Source: Oceanidesulfovibrio indonesiensis (GTDB lineage: Bacteria; Desulfobacterota; Desulfovibrionia; Desulfovibrionales; Desulfovibrionaceae). From it: a DNA stretch of 64,000 nt. The stretch covers positions 62,001 through 126,000 of the forward strand of contig NZ_QMIE01000008.1 of NCBI RefSeq assembly GCF_007625075.1, read 5' to 3'. Below are positions 32,996 to 35,766 of this stretch, piece by piece. Numbering within the stretch: the first letter of the stretch is position 1; every line of letters begins with the position of its first letter. A model generated the notes under the pieces. It had not been told where the DNA came from. It ran no database searches and worked only from the letters and a program-made list of their open reading frames with translations. The position numbers and the translations under genes were made by a program.

Positions 32996-33520
32996 ATGAC
33001 TGAAGATACTCGAAGCGCCGTGCTCAAGGCGTTGCATGAAAGGCGCAGCATCCGCAGGTTCAACGCATCACCCGTAAGCCGCGAGGACGTGCATGAAATA
33101 TTGGACGCCGGCCGCTGGGCGCCTTCCGGCAAGAACAACCAGCCCTGCCGGTTCCTTGTTGTCCGCTCCGGAGACGAGCGCCAGGGCGCATTGAGCGACT
33201 GCACCAAGTATTCGCACATTGTGGACGGCGCGGCCATCCTCATCTGCGTGTTTCTGGACAGGCAGGCCTGCTACGACGTTCGCAAGGACCACCAGAGCGC
33301 CGGCGCGTGCATCCAGAACATGCTTCTGGCGGCGCATGCCCTGGGCCTGGGCGCGGTCTGGCTGGGCGAGATCATCAACCAGGCGGATGACGTTGCTGCC
33401 GTGCTCGGCGTGGATGGGGAGCGCTACGAACTCCAGGCGGTCATCGCCTTGGGGCATCCAGACCAGGACGGCAAGGCGGTGCGCAACGATCTGGCCGACT
33501 ACATGCTGGAGGCGTTCTGA
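32996..33520 (+). CDS. Nitroreductase-family flavoprotein
   Basis: A 174-aa FMN-dependent oxidoreductase of the small nitroreductase class. The opening HERRSIRRFNASPVSREDVHEIL holds the RRSxRxF motif that contacts the FMN phosphate, followed by AGRWAPSGKNNQPCRF. The central AGACIQNMLLAAHALGLGAVWLGE carries the second FMN/dimer signature, and the end has VIALGHPDQ. Substrate unknown; some relatives are azoreductases or iodotyrosine-deiodinase-like. It shares its last base with the MBL-fold start (TGATG), and two more redox genes follow, so it belongs to a coupled operon. Confidence 0.9.
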   Translation: MTEDTRSAVLKALHERRSIRRFNASPVSREDVHEILDAGRWAPSGKNNQPCRFLVVRSGDERQGALSDCTKYSHIVDGAAILICVFLDRQACYDVRKDHQSAGACIQNMLLAAHALGLGAVWLGEIINQADDVAAVLGVDGERYELQAVIALGHPDQDGKAVRNDLADYMLEAF

Positions 33521-34164
33521 TGCCGGCTGCGGACACGATGCAGATTCGCACGTTTGCGCTGGGGCCATTGCAGACCAACTGCTATCTTCTTTCCCGCAAC
33601 GGGGAGGCCGTGGTGGTGGACCCGGGCGGAGACCCCGCCGCCGTGCTCGGCGCACTCGAGAACGACGGTCTGACGCTGACCCACATCCTGAATACTCACT
33701 TCCATTTCGACCATGTAGGTGGCAACAGGAAGCTCGCGCAGGAGACGGGCGCGCCCATTCTGGCCAGTTCCGAGGACGCGTACCTCATGGAGACGGAGCT
33801 CGGTCTCGGCGGGTTCATGGGCCTGCCCAGAATCGAAATGTTCGAGTACGAGAACATCAAGCCGGGCGCGCACCGGTTTCTCGGTCTGGAATGCACGGTG
33901 TTCCGCACCCCGGGGCATTCGCCGGGCAGTCTGTCGTTCTATTTTCCGGACGCCGCCGCAGTTTTCGTGGGCGACCTCGTGTTCTATCGCTCCGTGGGCC
34001 GCACCGATTTTCCGGGCGGTGACTTCGACACGCTCAAGCATTCCGTGATGGAGAGTATTTTCACTCTCCCGGACGAGACGGCCATCTACACCGGCCATGG
34101 CGAAGCGACCAACGTGGGCGACGAGAAACGGAACAACCCGTTTTTCAGCGATTTTCATCTGTAA
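33520..34164 (+). CDS. Metallo-beta-lactamase-fold hydrolase (glyoxalase II-like, YcbL type)
   Basis: A 214-aa MBL-fold hydrolase. The opening MQIRTFALGPLQTNCYLLS is typical of the YcbL/glyoxalase-II-like group. The metal-binding motif is H60-F-H62-F-D64-H65, with the next ligands in FRTPGHSPGS, VFVGDLVFYRSVGRTDFPGG and IYTGHGEATN. In this group substrates are thioesters or persulfides. The start codon overlaps the nitroreductase stop and the next ORF begins 18 bp downstream, so the gene sits in the middle of the redox operon. A function with a sulfur-carrier protein would fit, but that is inference. Confidence 0.9.
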   Translation: MPAADTMQIRTFALGPLQTNCYLLSRNGEAVVVDPGGDPAAVLGALENDGLTLTHILNTHFHFDHVGGNRKLAQETGAPILASSEDAYLMETELGLGGFMGLPRIEMFEYENIKPGAHRFLGLECTVFRTPGHSPGSLSFYFPDAAAVFVGDLVFYRSVGRTDFPGGDFDTLKHSVMESIFTLPDETAIYTGHGEATNVGDEKRNNPFFSDFHL

Positions 34165-34181
34165 CCGACAGGAGCGAGCCC

Positions 34182-34406
34182 ATGTCGCAGACGCATATCG
34201 ATCTGTCCCAAAAATGTTGAGGGCTCGCGCTGGAGATCGGGTGGCATCTCCGTTTCAGCAAGGGCGAGTCCATAGCCTTCACCGTTCAGCAGTCGAGCCG
34301 CGAACTTCTGTATGAGGTCTTGACCATGCAGCCCAACTGGTCCCTCGACGTGGAGGAGAGCGGGCCGGACCGGCTGCACGCAACATACCGACGCAAAAAA
34401 CGTTGA
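34182..34406 (+). CDS. TusA/SirA-like selenoprotein candidate (in-frame TGA as Sec)
   Basis: Read with the TGA at 34218-34220 as selenocysteine, this is a 74-residue protein with a GGAG ribosome site 7 bp upstream. The N-terminus is MSQTHIDLSQ, then K11-C12-U13-G14-L15. The remainder follows TusA/SirA secondary structure: a helix (LALEIGWHLRFSKG), SKGESIAFTV in place of the PGE-strand, a helix over ELLYEVLTM, and a final strand (DRLHATYRR). Counting from D7, Sec falls where TusA has its catalytic Cys (Asp plus 6). Eleven nt after the TGA a hairpin GGAGAT/ATCTCC (34232-34251) with loop CGGGTGGC resembles a bacterial SECIS. The gene lies between MBL and flavodoxin-like redox genes. The alternatives are a true stop or a pseudogene; see findings. 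Confidence 0.72.
34232..34251 (+). promoter_or_regulatory. bSECIS-like hairpin after the in-frame TGA
   Basis: GGAGAT (34232-34237) and ATCTCC (34246-34251) give a 6-bp stem around an 8-base G-rich loop (34238-34245) with G as its second base. An outer GCT/AGC pairing (34229-34231 with 34257-34259) can extend it past a 5-base bulge. It begins 11 nt after the TGA, which puts the apical loop 18-25 nt downstream of it, inside the range known for bacterial SECIS elements. Confidence 0.7.
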
Positions 34407-34422
34407 TGACCCGGGACGAAAT

Positions 34423-35022
34423 ATGAGCAGGATGACCCTCTACGGCTGCAGCCCACGCCACGGCGGAAACAGCGATACGGCGCTGGATCTGTTTCGTGAT
34501 GAACTGGCCGAAGCGGGGGTTGCAACGGATCCGATCTGGCTGCGCGAACATCCCTTGCTGCCGTGCCGGGGCTGTGCGGTGTGCACGGACAAGGGACGCT
34601 GCGCTTTGTCAGGACGTGACGATGCGGATGTCCTGTTTGCGCCGCTTCTGGGCTCGGGGCCGGTGTTATTTGCCTCGCCCATCTACTTCTACCATGTGCC
34701 GGCCGGTTTCAAGAGCTTCATCGACCGCGCCCAGGCCTACTACATGCGCAAGCTCCGCGGGGACGAGACGATGGTGAATCTTCCCCGGCGCGAAGCGTTT
34801 TCCATATTCGTGGCAGGCAGGCCGCAGGGGGAGAAACTCTTCGAAGGCTCGCTCCTCACCCTGCGCTATTTTCTGGAGCCGTTCAACGTGACGCTGGCTG
34901 AACCGCTCACCCTGCGGGGTATCGACGGCAAAGACGATCTCGCCGGAAGCAGCGTGGCCGGCCTGGCGGTTCGGGAGTATGCGCGCACGGCTGCGGAACG
35001 GATAGCCGGCACGACGTCGTGA
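34423..35022 (+). CDS. Flavodoxin-fold NAD(P)H-dependent FMN reductase
   Basis: A 199-aa flavodoxin-like oxidoreductase. The opening TLYGCSPRHGGNSD is the phosphate-binding loop for FMN (S-P-R-x-G-G-N-S). It is followed by a cysteine pair CRGCAVC with a third cysteine in GRCALSG, a pattern of NADPH-dependent iron-sulfur or quinone reductases of the IsfD/WrbA-like group. VLFASPIYFYHVPAGFKSFIDRA is the conserved central motif that closes the flavin pocket. It is the fourth gene of the nitroreductase operon, and comF starts 12 bp downstream. The electron donor and target are unknown. A physical role with the selenoprotein candidate is suggested by gene order only. Confidence 0.85.
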   Translation: MSRMTLYGCSPRHGGNSDTALDLFRDELAEAGVATDPIWLREHPLLPCRGCAVCTDKGRCALSGRDDADVLFAPLLGSGPVLFASPIYFYHVPAGFKSFIDRAQAYYMRKLRGDETMVNLPRREAFSIFVAGRPQGEKLFEGSLLTLRYFLEPFNVTLAEPLTLRGIDGKDDLAGSSVAGLAVREYARTAAERIAGTTS

Positions 35023-35034
35023 CGCGGGCAACGT

Positions 35035-35766
35035 ATGGCGCAGGGTGCGACGTTTCCGGATAATGGGGGCCTGAGCCGCCTGGCGGGTTTTCTGGGGATC
35101 GGCGGACGTTGCCGTCGGTGCGGCGACACCCTGCGGGTCGGCAGCGATCTCTGCGAGACGTGCTCTGCAGCTCTTACACCGCGCACGGGCGGATATTGCC
35201 CTGTATGCGGGCTGCTCTTTGCCGAAGAATCATTGCCGATCTCGCGTTGCGCCGAGTGCCGTAAATCGCCGCCGCCGTGGTCTGCCGTGGTGTTTCATGG
35301 CAAATACGAAGGGATGCTCGCCGACCTGGTGCAGGAGCTCAAGTACGGTCGCCGTCTGGACCGCGCGGCTATTCTTTCCGATCGCATGGCGCGGGCGTTT
35401 CTGGAGTCGGGCTTGGCCGTTGACGTGGTGATGCCGGTTCCGTTGCATCCCAGGAGGCTCAGACGGCGGGGATTCAACCAGAGCGCGGTGCTGGCCCGGC
35501 CGTTGGCGCGCACGATTGGCGCGGACTATGCATCGAAAGGCCTCAGGCGCGTTCGGGACACGCCGCCGCAGGTGAGCCTGCCGCGCAAGGATCGGCTCAG
35601 GAACATCGCGGGTGCGTTCGAGGCCGGCACTGAGCAGGCGGCGAACCGCCGCGTACTGCTGGTGGACGACATCATGACAACGGGGGCCACGGCCCGCGAA
35701 GCGTGCCGGGCGCTGATCAAAGCAGGGGCGCGCGATGTGGCGCTCTGCGTGGTGGCCCGGGCCTGA
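35035..35766 (+). CDS. ComF-family phosphoribosyltransferase-like protein
   Basis: A 243-aa protein. Two CxxC pairs (CRRCGD, CETCSA) and a third pair (CPVCG, CAEC) form an N-terminal zinc ribbon, followed by a PRTase domain. VLLVDDIMTTGATAREAC is the PRPP-binding loop. VMPVPLHPRRLRRRGFNQS and a KDRLRNIAGAF segment are the recognised ComF/GntX signature. ComF is required for DNA uptake in competent bacteria; in others the function is uncertain. The gene starts 12 bp after the flavodoxin-like gene and shares an operon with the MltB-like gene downstream (32 bp gap). No other competence genes are nearby. Confidence 0.9.
   Translation: MAQGATFPDNGGLSRLAGFLGIGGRCRRCGDTLRVGSDLCETCSAALTPRTGGYCPVCGLLFAEESLPISRCAECRKSPPPWSAVVFHGKYEGMLADLVQELKYGRRLDRAAILSDRMARAFLESGLAVDVVMPVPLHPRRLRRRGFNQSAVLARPLARTIGADYASKGLRRVRDTPPQVSLPRKDRLRNIAGAFEAGTEQAANRRVLLVDDIMTTGATAREACRALIKAGARDVALCVVARA

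Follow-up and report, generated by a model that had tools for sequence, protein, structure and literature searches.

An in-frame TGA at 34218-34220 raises the question of whether a short open reading frame in the window (the whole 64,000-nucleotide stretch of Oceanidesulfovibrio indonesiensis DNA analysed here) ends at this codon or continues through a selenocysteine (Sec) residue and, in the latter case, what kind of protein is made. The frame starts at ATG 34182, is interrupted by the TGA and then stays open to the stop TGA 34404-34406, giving a read-through product of 74 residues that begins MSQTHIDLSQKCUGLALEIGWHL and carries the pair Cys12-Sec13. This agrees with the sequence-only reading, which had described an open frame with a ribosome-binding site, a single internal TGA and a normal stop, and had proposed a selenoprotein. 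The proposal is now supported by a TGA conserved among relatives, an ortholog with Cys in place of Sec, a covarying SECIS-like hairpin, the Ka/Ks values and the presence of Sec machinery, and on these comparisons the window gene almost certainly encodes a genuine selenoprotein. Our explanation as a whole, held with good confidence, is that of an uncatalogued Desulfovibrionales selenoprotein with a TusA-like fold, which would act as a small redox or chalcogen carrier. Coordinates are collected in Table 1.

Table 1. Features of the Sec gene and its conserved cluster, in positions of the window
Feature	Position	Strand	Basis
Nitroreductase-family protein, first gene of conserved cluster	32996..33520	+	PF00881 1e-32; synteny
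Metallo-beta-lactamase-fold (MBL; glyoxalase-II/YcbL-like) hydrolase	33520..34164	+	PF00753 1.3e-35; PDB 7ev5, 2zwr, 2xf4; synteny
Shine-Dalgarno sequence AGGAG	34170..34174	+	7 nt 5' of ATG; read from sequence
Selenoprotein gene, 74 aa, Sec at codon 13, stop TGA 34404-34406	34182..34406	+	conserved TGA, Ka/Ks
Cys-Sec pair, TGT TGA, residues 12-13	34215..34220	+	columns invariant in 56 aligned orthologs
SECIS-like hairpin, 6-bp stem 34232-34237/34246-34251, loop CGGGTGGC	34232..34251	+	covariation in relatives
FMN_red/flavodoxin-like protein with CX2CX2CX5C (iron-sulfur-flavoprotein-like)	34423..35022	+	PF03358 1.6e-13; motif
ComF-like phosphoribosyltransferase-family protein, last gene of conserved cluster	35035..35766	+	synteny

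The Sec protein is encoded in 80 of 149 sampled genomes of the window's family, and all 80 copies contain exactly one internal stop, which is always TGA. Across the order, a search with a profile of 56 aligned rows found the family in 120 of 199 genomes, from four taxonomic families; setting aside one genome with a Cys form (G583) and one with a paralog only (G082), 118 genomes carry TGA at the same codon, where TAA or TAG never occurs. Identity of the orthologs to the window protein ranges from 25 to 70%, and D7, C12, the TGA codon and L23 are invariant in the 56-row alignment even at 25-30% identity, so that the Cys noted earlier as preceding Sec (C-U-G) is found in 56 of 56 aligned orthologs. 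Ka/Ks 3' of the TGA is 0.04-0.32 in 12 ortholog pairs and 0.17 against the congener; as judged from these alignments, the downstream sequence is under purifying selection. A plain 12-codon ORF, or a nonsense pseudogene followed by a coincidental frame, would fit the expectation that standard gene calling would stop at 34218 and the existence of decayed copies in two genomes, but it retains next to no probability, given that all orthologs but one have TGA at that codon and never TAA or TAG, that selection acts 3' of it and that the hairpin described below covaries; the conserved TGA and Ka/Ks rule out both nonsense pseudogene and chance read-through.

The stub before the TGA is about 10-20 residues long across genomes (12 codons in the window gene), and because only this short stub lies 5' of the TGA, automatic annotation is likely to miss the family in many genomes. 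In a 395-genome sample of the phylum there were no matches outside the window's own family, while a scan of a genome collection returned 42 loci, labelled Desulfovibrionales or unplaced delta-/proteobacterial metagenome-assembled genomes (MAGs). A plasmid collection searched for the Sec protein gave no match.

The sole ortholog without TGA (L208, in G583) has C-P-C, one residue longer, at the site of C-U, and reads ACPCTLTRD where its congeners G156 and G586 read VCUGLMRD or VCUGLTRD. selA was not matched in G583 (85% complete), from which it is likely absent on this sequence evidence, and the two congeners keep both the Cys-Sec pair and selA. Sequence comparison thus identifies the G583 ortholog as a natural Sec-to-Cys replacement. 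The comparison of homologues at residue 13, suggested by the sequence-only reading, therefore gives TGA throughout and Cys in the sole exception, with coding conserved past the TGA. Decoding of the TGA as something other than Sec, either as Trp or by a near-cognate tRNA in a non-programmed manner, is an equally negligible prospect: TGA-less orthologs and paralogs have Cys there, not Trp, which rules out Trp; tRNA-Sec, selA and selB are present and a SECIS-like hairpin follows; and the gene's own stop is TGA.

Of the Sec machinery that the earlier reading had named, tRNA-Sec (anticodon TCA, 81.6 bits), selA and selB, the last close downstream of selA on the same contig, were found in the window's genome, but selD was not found in its assembly, either by model or with the congener's protein as query. 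selD scored above cut-off in 26 of 29 genomes searched, in most of these with an in-frame TGA of its own. In the congener G010 (locus L240) it is full-length and followed by a typA-like gene, and a 3-kb query of this selD-typA region against the window's genome (G000) recovered only short paralogous GTPase matches. Since the typA-like neighbour is likewise undetected, the absence of selD is probably an assembly gap. Among the TGA-bearing genomes of the order nearly all have selA; the two that lack it are MAGs of 77% and 63% completeness, and in a further one (82%) only a selA fragment is present.

The hairpin begins 11 nt 3' of the TGA. This placement, proposed earlier, holds and the stem covaries among relatives; folded alone, however, the window hairpin is no more stable than shuffled sequences (z +0.3 to +0.7), so its support comes from comparison. 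Across 71 orthologs the stem reads G-C/G-C/A-U/G-C/(A-U or G-C)/U-A, with one more pair in many. In the fifth pair a Val/Ile codon contributes its first base and a Tyr/His codon its third; this pair is G-C in 34 rows, A-U in 27, G-U in 10 and A-C in none. The Val/Ile first base has undergone at least eight changes on the protein tree, and as a control, with an Ile codon in the stem, the third bases of Tyr/His codons elsewhere in the same genes are C or T in the ratio 35:34. The outermost pair has switched from G-C to C-G in one clade, along with an Arg to Gly change, and for 34 diverse rows the covariation score of the stem exceeds that of all 500 shuffles and of every slid register. The covariance-model check proposed for this region did not add to this, as Rfam returned neither a SECIS family nor any other match at the locus. 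The single TGA in 80 of 80 homologues and the covarying stem nevertheless place the in-frame TGA of the window gene beyond chance. On this comparative evidence, the hairpin at 34232-34251 would direct SelB and tRNA-Sec to decode UGA 34218-34220 as Sec. In family f4 (L222 and L227 of genus g52, L223 of genus g297) a hairpin in shifted register, GAUGCC/GGCAUC, lies at the same place 3' of the TGA.

The AlphaFold model of the Sec protein (pLDDT 90.8, pTM 0.77) has predicted strands at residues 4-7, 30-36, 53-59 and 64-71 and predicted helices at 15-25 and 37-49, in agreement with the beta-alpha-beta-alpha-beta-beta fold of TusA/SirA. The three best Foldseek matches in the PDB are YeeE-YeeD (YeeD/TsuB) entries (TM 0.76-0.80), YeeD being TusA-like, and the top nine also include the SirA-like 3hz7 (TM 0.75 both ways) and TusA 3lvj (TM 0.67); the E-values run from 6e-3 to 4e-2, and methyltransferases and Alba proteins come close behind the TusA-type matches. 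A TusA-like fold is therefore predicted, and the model makes it quite probable. As in TusA/SirA proteins (PF01206; for example E. coli TusA and D. hafniense DSY4693 with structure 3hz7), which have about 75 residues and the same order of strands and helices (TM 0.67-0.80), an Asp stands six residues ahead of the active Cys or Sec, which lies just ahead of helix 1. In a forced global profile alignment, too, Sec falls in the column of the TusA Cys, and Cys12 in that of a variable residue.

In contrast to TusA, the protein has Sec for Cys, an extra preceding Cys, C-U-G-x in place of the CPxP active-site motif and a conserved WYLR-type helix, and in the samples searched it is confined to Desulfovibrionales. 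PF01206 matches none of the 56 aligned members, Pfam and NCBIfam scans of these members and of the window protein gave nothing significant, the profile-profile probability against 27 TusA domains from relatives is 58-73%, and a search of PDB sequences with the family profile yielded chance matches only. The earlier description as TusA/SirA-like is thus upheld for the fold and for the register of Sec on Cys, but it does not extend to recognition by sequence. With no TusA profile match and no CPxP, we refer to the protein as TusA-like, not TusA; it is probably homologous to TusA, yet not a member of the TusA family. The window's genome has a separate PF01206 protein (L111). YedF (TIGR03527), a SirA-like protein tied to selenium metabolism (PMC5322559), is comparable in having a TusA/SirA-like domain linked to Sec-using bacteria, but it uses Cys, within CPxP, and contains a DsrE-like domain as well, whereas the Sec protein is one 74-residue domain with Sec and without an NCBIfam match.

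The MBL hydrolase ends 17 nt upstream of the Sec-gene ATG and the flavoprotein starts 16 nt downstream of its stop. The position between a glyoxalase-II-like hydrolase and a flavodoxin-like protein, recognized from the window by itself, is conserved across the order: the arrangement nitroreductase-MBL hydrolase-Sec gene-flavoprotein-ComF is largely kept in 61 loci of the window's family, where the flavoprotein is a neighbour in 47, the MBL hydrolase in 44, ComF in 44 and the nitroreductase in 38, and it also occurs in families f2, f4 and f6. About a quarter of the Sec loci, with varied neighbours, are without the cluster, which leaves the assignment of partner proteins uncertain. By PDB comparison the hydrolase resembles glyoxalase-II/YcbL-type structures and, more weakly, persulfide dioxygenase. 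For the flavoprotein the only PDB sequence match is 1rli, and 52 of 58 homologues have CX2CX2CX4-9C, the remaining six having a longer final spacing. This resembles the compact motif of iron-sulfur flavoproteins (Isf), which share the FMN_red-like character; by this motif the flavoprotein is a putative member of that group. The last gene of the cluster is probably ComF-like, judged from features of its sequence.

Weaker TGA-less matches (L209-L217) are Cys paralogs, most of them with the pattern D-L-[RK]-x-x-x-C-G-L-[VI]-P. The Cys of these paralogs falls in the Sec column, and the residue before it varies (C, T, V or A). Because the paralogs keep a Cys in that column even where the neighbouring Cys is lost, these alignments suggest that the essential residue of the pair is the one at the Sec position. 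In three genomes, a paralog (L210, L214 and L216; VTCGLVPAI, TVCGLVPA) follows mnmE at a distance of 5-19 nt, and khpB/jag is found farther upstream; this adjacency suggests a link of the Cys paralogs to tRNA wobble modification. TusA works in mnm5s2U synthesis, and the paralogs could be taken to mean that the Sec protein likewise serves as a carrier in the thiolation or selenation of the tRNA wobble position. This is rather improbable, as mnmE is near the Sec gene in none of the 61 family loci, nor in the other Sec loci examined, and the neighbours of the Sec gene are different genes.

An explanation that carries more weight, though it too is unlikely, is that the selenoprotein is unrelated to TusA and has a convergent small alpha/beta fold, serving the cluster as a thiol/selenol reductase or as a peroxide/electrophile scavenger. 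The missing PF01206 match and CPxP motif and the weak profile-profile score are what it would lead one to expect, and the neighbours are of redox type; at one atypical locus, in G009, the downstream protein resembles, in sequence appearance, a VKOR/DsbA-type redox fusion. It has to contend with the three best Foldseek matches together with 3hz7 and 3lvj, all TusA-type and of similar domain length at TM 0.67-0.80, with an Asp-to-Sec spacing equal to the Asp-to-Cys spacing of TusA, and with the retention of that Cys in the paralogs.

We return to a TusA-like carrier. The product would be one small domain of predicted TusA-like fold, with Sec just ahead of helix 1, at the place of the TusA catalytic Cys and after the invariant Cys. 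Since an invariant Cys precedes Sec, the pair may switch between Cys-SH/Sec-Se(-) and a selenenylsulfide. The carrier could take up electrons or reduced sulfur/selenium species and be recycled by the co-encoded iron-sulfur-flavoprotein-like reductase; such a small redox or chalcogen (persulfide/selenide) carrier is our tentative proposal, and we would put it at somewhat less than an even chance. Narrower and more doubtful is a dedicated selenide/persulfide relay in Desulfovibrionales, in which Cys-Sec would bind and release S or Se and the co-encoded iron-sulfur flavoprotein would recycle it; if true, the TusA sulfur relay would have a counterpart based on selenium. Owing to the natural Cys ortholog and the conserved operon, a redox or S/Se role is directly testable in sulfate reducers.

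An inventory from May 2026, covering 119 families of prokaryotic selenoproteins, contains no TusA/SirA-type family (PMC13188914, Table 1). The bacterial selenoproteins with a CU motif listed there (SaoC, SaoB, SaoL, HgcA, MbdU, the Csac_0668 family and KCU-star) share the vicinal Cys-Sec pair but differ by family name and domain identity, and none is TusA-like. The deep-Sep paper, which screened Salidesulfovibrio onnuriiensis IOR2 (PMC12013277), does not report the family there; a copy with an extra in-frame TAA, as in G635, could account for this. NCBIfam (June 2026) and Pfam hold no model matching the family, and searches of the openly accessible literature found no TusA/SirA-like selenoprotein. 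Within this scope of inventory, family models and open papers, the family has very probably not been catalogued before and is probably undescribed; it is most likely a new selenoprotein family. It would be an addition to the bacterial selenoproteome and, as far as we have found, the first Sec version of a TusA-like fold, one in which a Cys-Sec pair occupies a site known for sulfur transfer.

The two decayed copies of the Sec gene differ in kind: the one in G635 (L236) is interrupted by an additional in-frame TAA following ...ATLDI, and from the one in G616 (L241) several conserved residues are gone. A Cys paralog is present in both genomes as well. At another locus (L083, in G031), a SelB-like ORF, identified from its sequence, lies about 1.3 kb from the Sec gene on the same contig.
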